Source of the DNA: Nitrososphaera sp.
GTDB lineage: Archaea > Thermoproteota > Nitrososphaeria > Nitrososphaerales > Nitrososphaeraceae
Assembly (NCBI GenBank): GCA_029263715.1
Contig: JAJUFP010000006.1
Coordinates: 62,001-126,000, forward strand
DNA: 64,000 nucleotides
Direction of reading: 5' to 3'
Part shown: piece by piece, positions 41,625 through 63,315 of the stretch
Numbering within the stretch: the stretch's first letter is position 1
Layout of the letters: every line of letters starts with the position of its first letter
Notes under the pieces: generated by a model
Seen by the model: the letters and a program-made list of their open reading frames with translations, nothing else
Databases searched by the model: none
What the model was told of the DNA's origin: nothing
Made by a program: the position numbers and the translations under genes

Positions 41625-43271
41625 TTATGTTGCCAACAGGGACATAGTTTTGATGGGCGAAAGTATTTCTGCATCTGAGAGGCTTGAAATCGCCAGCGTT
41701 CTTATCGTGTAACTGCCCGGTCCACCAGGTTCCCATGGAAATGCTACATCTGCGCTGCCTTTTGGACCAAGCGCGCCAGTCCTGTATTGCAGGTACACCG
41801 TGATGTCTTGGGCATTCCTTACCTCGACTATTGCCACATAAGGCTGTGCAGAATCGTTATTGTTGGCAAGAGTTACGGAAACCATGATCGGACCATTAAG
41901 AGGATGCGAATCTTCAATGACCATGCCGTTTCCGTCCCTAATGGAAGGCGTGATGGTAACCGTATCCATGCCTTTTCTTGGGGTCGTCACCTTCAGCTCA
42001 AAGGCGAAGCTCTTTGCAGGGTTAAGGCCCTGCTCTTTTCTGGCCAGATAGTCAGCCGGGTATGCATCTGTGTATTCAATACGCACAATATCATCATCAG
42101 AAACATCAATCGAGCTGGTCTGACCGGAATCTGACAGGTCGAGTCCAAACTCAAATGTTCCGGAATTCTCTGCACTTTCAGGCACTGCAAGTGTTTTTCT
42201 GTCTATGCTTGAAATGACATCAACTGCTATGGAGTCAACCCTGTCAGGATCTGCATTGGCGTCCGGGTCGGTTATGGTGACAGCGGCGGTATCGCCGCGG
42301 GCATAGACAGCCTTGTCTGCGGAAAATACCGGGTCAAAAGTCCGAACTTGGCCTATCACCGTCATGGTTCCTGAAACGTTGCCAACGGTAAAACTGACTT
42401 CGTCTGTAGAATTGGAGTTGTTCTCTTCTGCATCCAGACCCTGGTTGTAGTTGGCTTTTTCATGAAGCGTCAGGGATAGCGATTTGCTGGTGGCCACTAT
42501 CGACGAACCAAGCTGGTACCTTGCCTCGAATACTGCTGTGTTGCTGCCGGTCTCCTCAAAGACAGCCGCCGCGCCAAAGTCTCCGCCCTCCAGCGTGAAA
42601 AGGTCTGCATTTGGATCCGATTCTGAATCGAAGGTGAACTGGTCCCGCTCAAACGGGTTGAGATTGGCGTCCTGGTCCGTCACGGATATGTATACGAAAC
42701 TGTCAGAGCCGTACGAGTCCCTGTCAAGGCTCAGGCTGCCCAAAGTCTCCTCGTAGCTTATGGAAAACTCTGAATCACCAAAGACAATCCTGAACGTCAC
42801 TTCATCGTACAGGGAATCTCCTGTATCAAGCTCGCTTCCATTGTTGGCATCCTGTCCAAACCTTATGATGGGGGCGCGTACTCCGTCAAATCCGTCTGCC
42901 GGATCGTCAAAGCCGCTGGTATTGAGCGGATCCAGGGCCTTTTCTCCCATTCCATCGGCATACTGCGAGGCCGCGTGAACCAAAAAGAACTCGAATTTTT
43001 GCGAACCCGGACTGGTATCGGGAATCTCAAAACTATCCGACACGCTCTGGTTGTTGCGGCTGTCAGCCTCGATTGTGATGTTTATAGAATCATCGCTACT
43101 GTCCGACGCGTCTGGGTCCGTTATGACTATCTGGACTGCGGCTTCTCCAAAGAATTTTGACTGATAGTTATCTACAGACGTCCTGATGGTTGGTTCCTCT
43201 GAAAAGGCAGGCCTGCTAACAATAATCAGCATTACGAGCAAAGATGCTAGTAGCAAGGCAGCCAGCTTCAA
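41625..43271 (-). CDS. Secreted S-layer-like protein with three ITDPDA-type repeats
   Basis: 548 residues with a signal peptide (LAALLLASLLVMLIIVSRPAFS). Three beta-rich repeat domains begin with VQIVITDPDASDSSDDSINI, VYISVTDQDANLNPFERDQF and AAVTITDPDANADPDRVDSI, each about 140-150 residues apart; such acidic D-P-D-A-N motifs could bind Ca and recur in thaumarchaeal surface-layer proteins. Acidic composition also fits an exposed protein. There is no C-terminal transmembrane anchor; the C-terminus ends with an Ig-like domain (QPYVAIVEVRNAQDITVYLQ). It is encoded next to a lysyl oxidase homologue on the same strand. Confidence 0.82.
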   Translation of the reverse strand: MKLAALLLASLLVMLIIVSRPAFSEEPTIRTSVDNYQSKFFGEAAVQIVITDPDASDSSDDSINITIEADSRNNQSVSDSFEIPDTSPGSQKFEFFLVHAASQYADGMGEKALDPLNTSGFDDPADGFDGVRAPIIRFGQDANNGSELDTGDSLYDEVTFRIVFGDSEFSISYEETLGSLSLDRDSYGSDSFVYISVTDQDANLNPFERDQFTFDSESDPNADLFTLEGGDFGAAAVFEETGSNTAVFEARYQLGSSIVATSKSLSLTLHEKANYNQGLDAEENNSNSTDEVSFTVGNVSGTMTVIGQVRTFDPVFSADKAVYARGDTAAVTITDPDANADPDRVDSIAVDVISSIDRKTLAVPESAENSGTFEFGLDLSDSGQTSSIDVSDDDIVRIEYTDAYPADYLARKEQGLNPAKSFAFELKVTTPRKGMDTVTITPSIRDGNGMVIEDSHPLNGPIMVSVTLANNNDSAQPYVAIVEVRNAQDITVYLQYRTGALGPKGSADVAFPWEPGGPGSYTIRTLAISSLSDAEILSPIKTMSLLAT

Positions 43272-43366
43272 CTGAATATCCTGCGCTCTTTATCGATAAA
43301 TACCTTGCACGGGCTTTTCTTGCAACCGACGATTTGAGTTAAAAATGGGGAGGAAGAGCACCTGCT

Positions 43367-44140
43367 CTACCTGTTTGGTATCTTTTCGCCGCACAATCCT
43401 GGTTCGCATTCAGAATGTCCTACCACTTCGATCTTGGCGTTTCCGTTGCTGTCCCTTTTCAGCTGGAAGGACACCCAGGCAGTGTTGTTTGAAGTGTCTG
43501 TCTCTATGAAGGTCTCGTCCGGATTTGCAGTGCTCACCAGATAGTAAAGACCCGGCGGCGCTTCTGTGATGTCAACTTCCATGTCTGGAAGCGACTGATG
43601 GTACTGGTCTACCCAGCCCACGCTGATGCCCTGCAGGTCGCCGTTGCATTCCCAGTATGCCCTTTCTTTGGTAGGCGAGTTGTCGTTTATCTTGTACCAG
43701 TCAATGAGGCAGGAGGTGATCTTGACCGACTGGTTGACCAGCGGACCGTCCACGCTTCCGGCCCTGACTTCAAACAATGCAACGTCGGCGATGTGCCAGT
43801 GGTTGTGCTGCTCATGGAATGTGAACTGGCTGACAAGTTTCTCGTCTACGACGTTTCCGTCTGAATCCAGTATCTGCTGTATTGCATCCTGCGTCTGGGT
43901 GGGGTCGGTTGCCGGTATCACTGCCCTTATCTGCAGCGGACCTTGACCCGTGTTGGCCACACCGTTTGAGAATCGCAGCCATTCTTTCTGGTGATCATTT
44001 TGTATTGACAAGTGCGATGGAACTGCTGTCTTTAGGTCCGGCAGTAATCCCTGGCCTGCCGCATTGACGTTCTGCAATGTTACGGCTAAAGAACTTGCCA
44101 AGAGAATTCCTGCAAGGCCCATGCTCAAAAGTTTCAACAT
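43367..44140 (-). CDS. Secreted lysyl-oxidase-family copper amine oxidase homologue
   Basis: 257 residues with a signal peptide (residues 1-27, LSMGLAGILLASSLAVTL). The copper motif is FHEQHNHWHI (H112-x-H114-x-H116), matching HxHxH of lysyl oxidases. The residues needed for the lysine tyrosylquinone cofactor appear in place: K140 in SVKITSCLIDWYK (like GHKASFCLED) and Y180 in GISVGWVDQYHQSLPDMEVD (like GISxGxxDxY). The end pattern YYLVSTANPDETFIETDTSNN also fits. The family oxidises protein lysines and so cross-links proteins. The target here is unknown; the neighbouring S-layer-like protein is a candidate. The gap between the two genes is 95 bp. Confidence 0.87.
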   Translation of the reverse strand: MLKLLSMGLAGILLASSLAVTLQNVNAAGQGLLPDLKTAVPSHLSIQNDHQKEWLRFSNGVANTGQGPLQIRAVIPATDPTQTQDAIQQILDSDGNVVDEKLVSQFTFHEQHNHWHIADVALFEVRAGSVDGPLVNQSVKITSCLIDWYKINDNSPTKERAYWECNGDLQGISVGWVDQYHQSLPDMEVDITEAPPGLYYLVSTANPDETFIETDTSNNTAWVSFQLKRDSNGNAKIEVVGHSECEPGLCGEKIPNR

Positions 44141-44341: not shown

Positions 44342-45601
44342 ATGTCACTGATGGCCATTACCTTGAATCCTTCAACATTGCAAAGGATGGAAATTGCAAA
44401 AGGAATGTATCTTCAAGGCGTGTCTGATAATTCCAATTATTCCCATACGACTGCGATATCCGCCATTCTAAATTTTGATTATGCTGCTGAAACTCTCATC
44501 AAAGCAGTATTAATTGATGCAGGAATATCCCTGAATACAACGACCAAAAGTGGCACTTCTGTTTTCAAAGATTTTCCAACACTTATCAAAGATTTACAAA
44601 CTAAGTACCCGTCTTTGAGTAATGTCATTCTGAATGCAATAGACTCCTTACATAAACTTAGAAATGATGTTCAGCATAATGCTCAGATTCCCTCACAAAC
44701 CTCAATAACGCGGTTTGAATCGAATGTAAGAATTTTCTTTGATGATATTCTGAAAAATATATACAATAATGTAATTACATTTGAAGAGATATCTCTTTCT
44801 GCTTTTGTAGAAAGCAAGGTGGCAAAAGTAATACTTGATGAAATGGAGAAAGCTATTGCATCTGGTAATTATGATGACGCGGTTTACTTGGCTAGAAAGG
44901 CAGTGTCATATCTTATATCACTAGTTAGAAAAGAACTTGATTTGCCGAATAAATCTCATAATGCTCGATCATTGCATACGTCTTCCATATCGAAAAGACA
45001 TCGGCGAAGTTATAAAGACCAGGAAGTAAGAATGGTAGTAGATAATATTAACGAACATGTCAGTACAATATCTAATTTTCTAAATGAAGTTAAAGATGTA
45101 ATGCTTGAAATGGATGAAAGAGTAGAGTGGTTAATCGATACTGGCATATTACTGGAATACAAGTATGAGTTGAGTCAGCTTCTCGGAGATCACAGATTTA
45201 CAATCAAATATAAAATGGAACCCGACAATGAACACGTAGACCTCCAAAAAGCGGAAAAATCACGAGCTCTAGCCTATTACATAATAATGAAAATGCAATC
45301 AATTCTGAAAGCGCATAAGGACGAAGATTCTGCATTTGTTTTTTACCTAGGAAAAAGTGTTTTAGGTACAACTAGCATTATCAAGGCTGGTTACGCTAGC
45401 GCAGCAGTAATTATTGAATCCAAATGGGAGCTGCGATTACAAGGCAGCAATGATGTAATCCAAAGTGGAAAGATAGATGGACAAGGAATTAAACAAATTG
45501 AAATCAAAGAATTAGAGAAAGGAAAAACATACACCTTTGTTATCATAATAAGTGATGGACAGAAGGAAATAAGTGAATCTGTGCAATTTACTATTCCCTA
45601 A
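44342..45601 (+). CDS. HEPN-like protein with C-terminal Ig/FN3-like domain, 419 aa
   Basis: AT-rich gene unlike its GC-richer neighbours. The first 150 residues are helical with LHKLRNDVQHNAQ (R107-x4-H112), the RxxxxH motif of HEPN ribonucleases. A second helical region (155-215) resembles another HEPN-like or four-helix unit (DDAVYLARKAVSYLISLVRK). A coiled-coil follows (about 240-290), and the C-terminal 80 residues are beta-rich like an FN3/Ig domain (ESKWELRLQGSNDVIQSGKI). HEPN proteins act in antiviral or toxin systems; that role is inference. TTATTTTAC lies about 24 nt before the ATG. Confidence 0.72.
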   Translation: MSLMAITLNPSTLQRMEIAKGMYLQGVSDNSNYSHTTAISAILNFDYAAETLIKAVLIDAGISLNTTTKSGTSVFKDFPTLIKDLQTKYPSLSNVILNAIDSLHKLRNDVQHNAQIPSQTSITRFESNVRIFFDDILKNIYNNVITFEEISLSAFVESKVAKVILDEMEKAIASGNYDDAVYLARKAVSYLISLVRKELDLPNKSHNARSLHTSSISKRHRRSYKDQEVRMVVDNINEHVSTISNFLNEVKDVMLEMDERVEWLIDTGILLEYKYELSQLLGDHRFTIKYKMEPDNEHVDLQKAEKSRALAYYIIMKMQSILKAHKDEDSAFVFYLGKSVLGTTSIIKAGYASAAVIIESKWELRLQGSNDVIQSGKIDGQGIKQIEIKELEKGKTYTFVIIISDGQKEISESVQFTIP

Positions 45602-45619
45602 TCTGTGCAAACATTAGCT

Positions 45620-45889
45620 TTATCTTCTAACAGAATCGTTCTCTATATTGGTCACTCTGTTCTCTAACATTTCCAAACGTGCCTTTATCTTCTTGCTGTC
45701 GGAATATGATATGATTATGCTAACTACTTGGGCTGCGATCAGAACTCCCGCTCCATACCAGATTAATTGAAAGGCATCGGGATCATACGTTGCAAGGATA
45801 CCCCCAATAGCTATTATTATTGCAGATACTACATTCAAGATGATAGATATAATATTGGCCAAAAGAAACGCAACTACTTCATCTTTCAT
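45620..45889 (-). CDS. Small membrane protein with two TM helices and a coiled-coil tail, 89 aa
   Basis: Two hydrophobic helices (LANIISIILNVVSAIIIAIGG and LIWYGAGVLIAAQVVSIIIS) and a charged helical tail (KKIKARLEMLENRVTNIEN). Membrane-associated small proteins of this form often act as effectors or assembly partners. It lies between the HEPN-like gene and the KAP NTPase pair, convergent with the former. No family recognised. Confidence 0.6.
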   Translation of the reverse strand: MKDEVVAFLLANIISIILNVVSAIIIAIGGILATYDPDAFQLIWYGAGVLIAAQVVSIIISYSDSKKIKARLEMLENRVTNIENDSVRR

Positions 45890-46046
45890 TAGTTGAATGA
45901 AAGATACGTAAGATAAATTGCTTTCTTGACATCACTTCCTAACTGCTCACTACTTTGATACAGCACAAAGCGACGAGGAAATTAGCAGGTTCTCTTTTTA
46001 TTGACAATAAATTAAAAGCAGGGACATCACATAGATTGAGTGACAA

Positions 46047-47366
46047 TTATGAAATTAGGCCGACAACACATATTGTTCGCTCCAATTCTACGAGTTTGTT
46101 GTTGTTATTTCTCTCAGGATCAGGCCCGATATCCAACGTTTCTTTGACCTCTTTTAGGAATCTGTATAGCTGATGGTTCTCATTCACATACTTGTATAAT
46201 ATCTCCTGTGCTACTGGATTGAATGCATGTGAAATGTTCATGTAATCGTACATGTTTAACGATCTTGCACCTTGTCTGGAATCTGAATTTTTTATTTCTG
46301 CGAGTTTTCTTTGAAAAGAAGGAAAATCTTCAGTACTCCCAACGATGGAGCAGAGATGAATCAGTATCTTTGGACTTTCGCGAACGAATCTCGAAATCTC
46401 AGGGAATGAAGTTGTTAAGATACTCCAGATTAAAACATATGGAAATAAAGTTGGAAATTCCTTCTCTTCAATATTATTAGATATGAAATACGCTAGATTC
46501 AATGCTCTCTTGATTTTTCTAGGATTGTATGGAATTCCTCGTCTCAGAAATCTCTTTATTTCATCAGGAAGATTTTGAGTGATAGTCTCGATGTATTGTA
46601 TTATCATAGCATCGTTCTTTGGTGGCAGTTCCAACTTTAACTGAAATATCTTGTCAAGATGTTCTTTTCCTTCATTAACAGATTCTGACTGACCCTTATG
46701 TTTTAGAACCCAAGCTCTCTCTAACTTAGTGATATCTACACCAACAACGAAGGTTGTCTTTCTTGTATTGAAAAGTAACTTTATGGCTTCTAGCATATCA
46801 ATAACGTTATCAATGCTACATCTGTCCAAGTCATCAACAAATATTACTAACCGACCTTTACCAATTACTTTCTCCAGTGTTTCTGAAAAGGCTCTAAAAC
46901 CCTCTATGGTATCACGGAATTACTTCAAAACCCCTCCAGCATTGTTATATCGGATTTTTTTTGTAGCAACGTCTGATGTAATCAGTAACATTTTCAGTAG
47001 CTCAGAGAGTTTTTTAACATATGGTTTTCCAATAAACTTTTGCAAAATGTGTTGAATTAGTGCCTTTACAGGATCCAGTTTCTCATACTGCCATGCATCA
47101 AACCAAATTACTTTGATACTCTCAGATTTCTCTTCTTCTTCGAGCATATAATAAACACGCTTAAGTAAACTGGTTTTTCCGGATCCCCACTCTCCAACAA
47201 GACAGATCGAAAATGGTTTATCTGGAAGGGATTTTATCAGGTTGTAAAGCTGTTCAGTATATACCTTATATCCAAATAGATCTGATTCATAATCAGGTTC
47301 ATCTGCTAATAATTTTAAAGCCGAAATAATCTTTCCTTTTTCATACTTAGAAGAGATCAGATTCAT
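46047..47366 (-). pseudogene. KAP-family P-loop NTPase interrupted by one in-frame stop codon
   Basis: 440 codons in one frame, start ATG at 47364-47366, with a TAA at 46920-46922 after codon 148. Upstream of it are the P-loop GEWGSGKTS (residues 58-66) and IKVIWFDAWQYEKLDP, a KAP-NTPase signature; downstream, in the same frame, are EGFRAFSETLEKVIG, the Walker B VIFVDDLDRCSIDN and VVGVDITKLERAWVLKHK. So a single nonsense change splits an otherwise intact protein. The downstream half could start at an internal TTG. It may be a dead gene, an assembly error, or a site of readthrough. KAP NTPases are often tied to phage exclusion. TATA CTTTTATAG sits 25 nt before the start. Confidence 0.82.
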
Positions 47367-61683: not shown

Positions 61684-63315
61684 TCAGCCAAAATTCCTTA
61701 TTTCATTTTTGATTGCCCGGGCCACGGCCGGAGTCAGCACGGGATAGAATGTTGCAATGTACTGTTTTGAATCCATCTTGGCCGCTAATTTGGTATCAGC
61801 GTAGCCCTCCAGAAACTCCTTTGTTATTGCCGCGGCCATGTCTGCATTTCTGCTGTTCTTGAGGCCCCAGCACACAAACTGCGCGACATCCCATGCAGGG
61901 TCGCCGGCATCAAAGACAAACTGTTCCAGGTCAGTGAAATACAAACCGTCATGAATTATGACGTTCTTTGGCTTTATGTTGCCAAAGCTGGCCCCCGTTT
62001 GATGGACTTGGGCCATCTGCCGGCCTGCAACCCTTAACCATTCAGTTTCCTCATCCCTGCCCAAAAGCAGGCCGCGGATAACATCGGCAAGGGTCCTTCC
62101 TTCTATGAACTGCGTTACCAAAAGCCTTCTGTCCAGAACCACGGCCTCTATTGATGGCGTCAAAAGCCCCAGCCTGCGGATCTGCCTTGCAGCCTTGTAT
62201 GCCGAACCCAGCCTGTACATCGGGTCTATCTTGAACTTTTTTACCGGCGCAGTCCACATGCTTAGCGCTGCCCATTTCACTGATTTCGTCCTTGCCAGTT
62301 TTTTGACCGCGTACCTGCGCTCATTGTTTTTGTTCTGCAGCACGTACAGCATGGTCCTGCTGTTTGGGTTTCCAAGCCGCCTTTTGGTTATCGAGTAATT
62401 ATCAAGCCCGGCCTGGCTGGCCAGCAGGTCGAGCCAGTACTGCCTTCTGCTGTCTGATACCAGCAGACCTTCTGGAAGCTTGCAATAAACGCAGGCAGGG
62501 CAGGACATGAAATCTGGAAACTCTACCCGCTGGGCTACCTGTCTTTTTATCTTGGACTCAGCCTCCCTTACTGCAAGATGCAGGGTCTTTCTGCCCGCAT
62601 ACGTGTGGACGAAATACGAGCTGAATTCCTGAAGCTTCTTGGTCAGCTCAAGCGAGGCGCGGTTTTTTTCCACCTGCACGCGCTTTTCAGAGATCCTCAA
62701 GAGATCTCCTTGCTGTTCAAAGAGCTCCTTGTCTTCGGCCATGATCTCTGCCAGCGCCCGCCTGTAGCCGTCCAGAGCAAATTTCAGGTTCTGTTCGTTT
62801 GCAGTGTAAGTCTTGTAGTAGCTGTATGCAGCATTTGGGTACAATGACGCCCTCCGCTTTACCTTTGAAAAATGCACGTATTCCAAGGGAAAAGAAATTT
62901 CCGTGCAAAGCAGGCTGGTCTGGCCAACCAGGTTCTGCATCTCTTCAAGGATCACCCGTTTTTTGTAAAGGCGTTCCATGCGCTCAAAGAACTCGGCGTT
63001 GATCACGGGCTCGTAAACATGCAAAAGCCTTCCGACAACAAACTCGCCCAGATGCGCATGCCGTGCATCGCTTTCCAGAGAACCCTGGTCGACAACCAGG
63101 GCAGAAACCTGCAGGCCCTGATCCTTTTGGTAAACGTACTTGACTGCATACGGGTAGTTGGCAAGAACTATCATGACGTCGACGTCGCTGTCCGGCCTTG
63201 CGTAGCCTGCCACCCTTGAGCCGTAGATGCAGGCGGCAACTATTCTGCGGCGGCCGGCTATCCGTTCCATCACGTTTTTCAGGGACTGCAGTTCTTCCGG
63301 CGAGAGGCTAAACAT
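61684..63315 (-). CDS. Nucleotidyltransferase fused to a kinase-like domain, 543 aa
   Basis: An N-terminal nucleotidyltransferase domain (ACIYGSRVAGYARPDSDVDV, GS-x(n)-DxD, residues 25-55) is followed by a helical middle region and a Cys cluster (SCPACVYCKLPEG, C272, C275, C278), then a kinase-fold domain from about 300: YAVKKLA (Lys 338/339), VTQFIEGRTLADVI hinge, the catalytic loop GASFGNIKPKNVII, and TDLEQF (D462) as DFG-like. In related Bud32/LPS-kinase-like proteins the loop is HGDxxxxN; here the catalytic Asp position is N446, so the kinase may be inactive. Convergent with rps27ae (3 bp between stops). It overlaps the upstream gene by 8 bp. Confidence 0.8.
   Translation of the reverse strand: MFSLSPEELQSLKNVMERIAGRRRIVAACIYGSRVAGYARPDSDVDVMIVLANYPYAVKYVYQKDQGLQVSALVVDQGSLESDARHAHLGEFVVGRLLHVYEPVINAEFFERMERLYKKRVILEEMQNLVGQTSLLCTEISFPLEYVHFSKVKRRASLYPNAAYSYYKTYTANEQNLKFALDGYRRALAEIMAEDKELFEQQGDLLRISEKRVQVEKNRASLELTKKLQEFSSYFVHTYAGRKTLHLAVREAESKIKRQVAQRVEFPDFMSCPACVYCKLPEGLLVSDSRRQYWLDLLASQAGLDNYSITKRRLGNPNSRTMLYVLQNKNNERRYAVKKLARTKSVKWAALSMWTAPVKKFKIDPMYRLGSAYKAARQIRRLGLLTPSIEAVVLDRRLLVTQFIEGRTLADVIRGLLLGRDEETEWLRVAGRQMAQVHQTGASFGNIKPKNVIIHDGLYFTDLEQFVFDAGDPAWDVAQFVCWGLKNSRNADMAAAITKEFLEGYADTKLAAKMDSKQYIATFYPVLTPAVARAIKNEIRNFG

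Follow-up and report, generated by a model that had tools for sequence, protein, structure and literature searches.

A lysyl oxidase gene beside an S-layer paralogue in the genome of an ammonia-oxidising Nitrososphaera

The 64,000-nucleotide stretch of a Nitrososphaera sp. genome analysed here (the window; positions 62,001 to 126,000 of contig JAJUFP010000006.1) carries a genuine, apparently intact lysyl oxidase (LOX) gene, and a chance match is excluded. The assignment is a correct annotation and adds a further member to a known family. The S-layer paralogue that lies next to the gene is probably a positional neighbour and not a dedicated substrate, and as the best explanation of the enzyme we tentatively favour the deamination of environmental primary amines.

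The lysyl oxidase gene and its product

The gene occupies positions 43367..44140 on the minus strand and encodes, from an ATG start, a putative secreted copper amine oxidase (PF01186) of 257 aa. A gap of exactly 95 bp (43272..43366, minus strand) separates it from the gene for an S-layer-like repeat protein (41625..43271, minus strand; 548 aa, TTG start, 14 Lys, 0 Cys), and the sequence confirmed both open reading frames, their strand, their spacing and the upstream position of LOX as the first-pass annotation had given them. By eye, we found in the gap a TATA-like element (ggTATTTATCG) ~30 bp 5' of the repeat-gene TTG, which would be compatible with the repeat gene having its own promoter. 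On the far side of LOX, between it and the gene for elongation factor 2, lie genes for an HEPN-domain protein and a KAP-NTPase (44342-47366). The KAP-NTPase gene is apparently in two frames (46047-46829 and 46920-47366), the larger piece of which resembles QatA, and is possibly a decayed defence gene.

The protein belongs to PF01186 (E 8.4e-13, 48.8 bits against a cut-off of 20.4), and human LOXL2 (5ze3) was its sole sequence match in the PDB (E 5e-7). LOXL2 again came first (E 1.9e-8; TM 0.54 on query length) when folds were compared with an AlphaFold model that has a mean pLDDT of 81.7, a helix at residues 2-29 and a low-confidence loop at residues 155-164, showing that the model has the LOX fold. 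The first-pass annotation had read H112, H114 and H116 as the copper HxHxH motif and K140 and Y180 as the equivalents of the LTQ cofactor Lys and Tyr, and both readings were borne out: the five residues align onto the copper ligands and LTQ pair of LOXL2 (H626/H628/H630, K653 and Y689) and are invariant in an alignment of 27 archaeal and bacterial homologues that are 40-79% identical to the window LOX. Equally invariant are H109, C144, C165 and the stretch Q170-G171...G175-W176-x-D178-Q179-Y180. Loss of the Lys or Tyr from orthologues, which the first-pass annotation had named as a refutation of its proposal, was found in neither near nor distant homologues. By the LOXL2 and 27-homologue alignments, the copper site H109-xx-H112-x-H114-x-H116 (HEQHNHWH) maps to 43793..43816, K140 to 43721..43723 and Y180 to 43601..43603, all on the minus strand. 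H109 (codon 43814-43816) takes the place of the fourth His of the animal type (H289 of human LOX), H112, H114 and H116 corresponding to the essential three (PMC4448552). This fourth copper-site histidine, which has been described as missing from bacterial LOX (PMC4448552), is present in the window protein and in all 27 homologues, bacterial MAG contigs included.

The N terminus of the protein is hydrophobic, and residues 1-27 (44060..44140, minus strand), read by eye, form a putative Sec signal with an AxA-like site between ...NVNA and AGQ. Copper loading, LTQ formation, secretion and activity are predicted. With animal LOX and LOXL1-4 (human LOXL2, 5ze3), the window LOX shares the catalytic domain, the three copper His plus the fourth, and the LTQ Lys/Tyr; it differs in having no SRCR or propeptide domains, only 4 cysteines and no collagen/elastin substrate, and identity in the fold match is ~20%.

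A 2015 study described LOX from thaumarchaeotes (PMC4448552), and the first-pass view that archaeal LOX proteins are known only from sequence surveys is outdated, as the Haloterrigena turkmenica enzyme (HTU-LOX) was expressed and assayed in 2019 and found to be active, copper-dependent and BAPN-sensitive (PMC6452851). Its good substrates include taurine, polymyxin, histamine and cadaverine; it also oxidises amikacin and capreomycin and is weak on glycine, beta-alanine and GABA (PMC6452851). As described in that paper, HTU-LOX resembles the window enzyme in being an archaeal LOX with a hydrophobic N terminus and the same catalytic residues, whereas it belongs to a euryarchaeal group for which a separate transfer from bacteria has been proposed (PMC4448552). 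Thaumarchaeal LOX proteins, including that of Nitrosopumilus salaria BD31 (PMC4448552, PMC6452851), are of the same family as the window LOX; the N. salaria protein (locus L013) is 45% identical to it over the best segment.

The S-layer paralogue as a neighbour of LOX

The label "S-layer-like" given to the neighbouring protein at first pass was right, in that its residues 174-540 align with NmSLP, the S-layer protein of Nitrosopumilus maritimus (PDB 8c8k and related), over the C-terminal 365 residues of NmSLP (E 9.4e-14); NmSLP has 1734 aa and the repeat protein only 548. No Pfam family scored above cut-off, and the top Foldseek matches, 8c8m/8c8l, lend weak support, the model having a pLDDT of only 62.9. 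Several paralogues are encoded in the same genome; the open frames of three measure ~1280-1490 aa, and one of these long paralogues matches the N-terminal part of the repeat protein at one end and its residues 165-543 at the other. From these similarities, we interpret the repeat protein as a short member of the thaumarchaeal S-layer paralogues, and the three full-length paralogues are more likely than the 548-aa protein to form the lattice.

The first-pass annotation had proposed that oxidative cross-linking of the envelope would be a new function. In such a scheme, LOX would oxidise lysines of the adjacent S-layer paralogue or of the S-layer lattice to allysine, whose condensation into covalent cross-links would stiffen the envelope. 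Animal LOX chemistry is in keeping with this proposal, as are the adjacency of the two genes in the window and the hydrophobic segments, seen by eye, at the N termini of both proteins. We nevertheless consider it unlikely, on evidence from gene context, co-occurrence and lysine content.

When 33 LOX loci were scanned for the repeat protein in flanks of up to ~8 kb (shorter on small contigs), it was found near LOX in two of them, the window and Nitrososphaera sp. WS208 (as labelled), and no S-layer-like gene was present in the scanned flanks of the other 31, so that a conserved LOX/S-layer pair was rejected. WS208 is the nearest LOX-bearing relative (LOX 79% identical), and the neighbourhood is kept there with insertions: between LOX and the repeat orthologue lie three genes, which code for a membrane protein, a dienelactone-hydrolase-like protein and an unknown protein. 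Beyond the orthologue, as in the window, come a cyclophilin gene and a cyclase-like gene. LOX and the repeat gene are old neighbours in a small clade, yet no fixed pair. The WS208 LOX starts 85 bp after a gene on the same strand for a YHS-domain heavy-metal/copper P-type ATPase (L074:6148-9190); a partnership with this ATPase was rejected because its 83% identical counterpart in the window genome sits on another contig.

In the third Nitrososphaera-genus genome with LOX (G032), a translation-factor-like gene adjoins it and there is no S-layer gene. Conversely, orthologues of the repeat protein occur in two genomes in which LOX was not found, G033 (44%; 95% complete) and G036 (43%; only 65% complete). 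LOX and the repeat orthologue coincide in 2 genomes, an overlap that favours a link over 70 genomes (Fisher p 0.014) but has a p of 0.11 within the genus, relatedness being uncorrected in both values. The co-occurrence in related genomes that the first-pass annotation had looked to was not borne out, and neither gene context nor co-occurrence supports envelope cross-linking as a new function.

The repeat protein is also poor in lysine: its 14 lysines make up 2.6% of the 548 residues, where the median over 39 proteins of the window is 6.0%, and the S-layer paralogues in its genome have 0.9-2.6%. Conservation does not favour its lysines either. At an overall identity of ~61%, the window and WS208 proteins share 7 of 13 lysines at aligned positions, and K272 is the only one invariant in four orthologues, two of which come from genomes in which LOX was not found. 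The repeat protein thus does not have the abundant or conserved lysines looked for in a substrate. Low lysine argues against cross-linking, although a few lysines could still suffice. Furthermore, BAPN had no significant effect on osmotic-stress sensitivity, cyst formation or growth of Haloterrigena (PMC6452851), and LOX is broken or absent in relatives. Taken together, context, co-occurrence, lysine content and lysine conservation all fail to support a functional link between LOX and its neighbour; cross-linking of the S-layer would be without precedent in archaea, and the present evidence points away from it.

We rejected the idea that the presence of LOX is tied to low S-layer lysine, which is low both in genomes with LOX (0.9-3.7%) and in those without it (1.5-4.8%). 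Acidic residues (D+E) make up ~18-24% of the S-layer-like proteins in the window genome, in WS208 and in G033, far above the ~6-12% in other genomes of the family (loci compared: L077, L078, L079 and L084-L095), and this acidity may reflect adjustment of cation binding to the habitat.

Distribution and descent of LOX

In the family, a 27-row profile detected LOX in 4 of 70 genomes, and in the class in 26 of 400; with Pfam the counts were 4/70 and 25/400. The possibility that Pfam was missing copies was rejected, as the only one added by the profile, in G117, is broken. In one Nitrosopumilaceae genus (g18, which includes loci labelled Nitrosopumilus), 16 of 95 genomes have LOX, and all have it at one site, downstream of a 4-hydroxybutyrate-CoA ligase gene and an HpaB-family gene and preceding the gene for a CFI-box protein and/or signal peptidase I. 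From its position, and in view of the 4-hydroxybutyrate cycle, we take the HpaB-family gene to encode a putative 4-hydroxybutyryl-CoA dehydratase. These LOX genes thus differ in setting from the window LOX, which adjoins an S-layer paralogue.

Wherever LOX occurs in this genus, and in G076 too, it directly follows the genes for the ligase and the putative dehydratase (L063:7093-12634 and 15 equivalents, for example L054-L056 and L061-L072). A CFI-box-CTERM protein gene followed by that for an archaeal signal peptidase I is the convergent neighbour of LOX at many Nitrosopumilaceae loci (L019, L013, L014). Oxidation of GABA, on which an archaeal LOX is weakly active, would give succinate semialdehyde, an intermediate of the 4-hydroxybutyrate cycle. 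LOX probably lies beside the 4-hydroxybutyrate genes by descent, and the case for a functional link to them is weak because the fixed site is inherited and is empty in many genomes.

In many LOX-negative genomes of this genus, the dehydratase gene directly precedes the signal peptidase or CFI-box gene, leaving the site empty. Three genomes have damaged copies at the same site, that of G141 being split, that of G168 carrying an in-frame TAG and that of G117 having stops and a frame break (L067:7609-8495, L068:7659-8600 and L108:3112-3922), which shows that loss of LOX occurs. These damaged copies and empty sites might mean that LOX is a largely cryptic passenger, recently acquired or decaying and of little function in its host, and the low native expression and undetectable activity in Haloterrigena (PMC6452851) would agree with this. 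We regard it as quite improbable, since the catalytic residues are invariant in 27 intact homologues down to ~40% identity, implying purifying selection in most carriers.

In a tree of LOX sequences, the three from the Nitrososphaera genus cluster (support 83/88), and their neighbours come from contigs labelled Gammaproteobacteria, Chloroflexota and Planctomycetota. The bacterial MAG contigs in the tree may be misbinned; one of them, L007, carries several porin-like genes in a row and appears to be genuinely bacterial. Support is weak at the deep forks, and three changes are required for the Nitrosopumilaceae sequences. The intermixing of archaeal and bacterial sequences fits lateral spread, which has been proposed for LOX (PMC4448552). 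Carriage by viruses was rejected, as a scan of viral contigs gave no relative. We concluded that LOX is most likely a laterally spread, accessory gene that is patchy in occurrence and easily lost.

Amine deamination as a possible role

The host genome encodes archaeal AmoA (E 2.6e-118), and we therefore take the organism to be an ammonia oxidiser. That the window gene specifies a catalytically competent, secreted LOX is a prediction, as are its physiological role and substrate. The account that we tentatively put forward is that this laterally spread, accessory enzyme is secreted and deaminates environmental primary amines, yielding NH3 that the host could use. With its own K140 and Y180 it would form lysyl-tyrosyl-quinone, and it would convert primary amines and O2 to aldehyde, NH3 and H2O2; its substrates outside the cell would be polyamines, taurine-like small amines and the exposed lysines of environmental peptides, and the NH3 released would become available to the ammonia-oxidising host.

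The family, the residues, the fold, the sporadic distribution and the AmoA of the host speak for amine deamination, as do the activity and relaxed specificity of the closest assayed archaeal homologue (PMC6452851). A non-systematic look beside LOX found no amine transporter, aldehyde dehydrogenase or other amine-catabolic gene. The biology of LOX in animals, which is cross-linking, also stands against this account. So do the slow turnover of HTU-LOX and the undetected amine oxidase activity of its host, in which native expression was low (PMC6452851), and the proposal that AmoA itself acts on the amines of polyamines (PMC10753782).

The substrates of HTU-LOX also bear on a role in defence or competition, in which the enzyme would inactivate antibiotics that carry amines, and cationic peptides (polymyxin, aminoglycosides), or would harm rivals through its H2O2. 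Oxidation of polymyxin, amikacin and capreomycin by the Haloterrigena enzyme (PMC6452851) would suit such a role, and patchy occurrence is typical of genes of this kind. However, natural resistance to these drugs is usual among archaea, as argued in the same paper, and the LOX loci share no defence-gene neighbourhood, so we hold this role to be quite improbable as well.

Returning to amine deamination, a survey of nitrifiers notes that some AOA cultures made labelled nitrite from putrescine, although the surveyed genomes lack the known genes of putrescine catabolism and have no complete pathway for it (PMC10753782). The text of that survey contains no word starting with "lysyl" and no "amine oxidase", as is also true of a second survey of organic N use by AOA, and our literature search found no paper connecting LOX with ammonia oxidation or with the archaeal S-layer. 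A bolder form of the deamination account, which we rate as rather unlikely, is that LOX serves some AOA as an extracellular amine deaminase that has so far been overlooked, releasing NH3 from putrescine, taurine and other amines at the cell surface and so coupling organic N directly to ammonia oxidation. If amine deamination is indeed its role, LOX would be a candidate gene for the reported, unexplained conversion of putrescine N to nitrite by some AOA.
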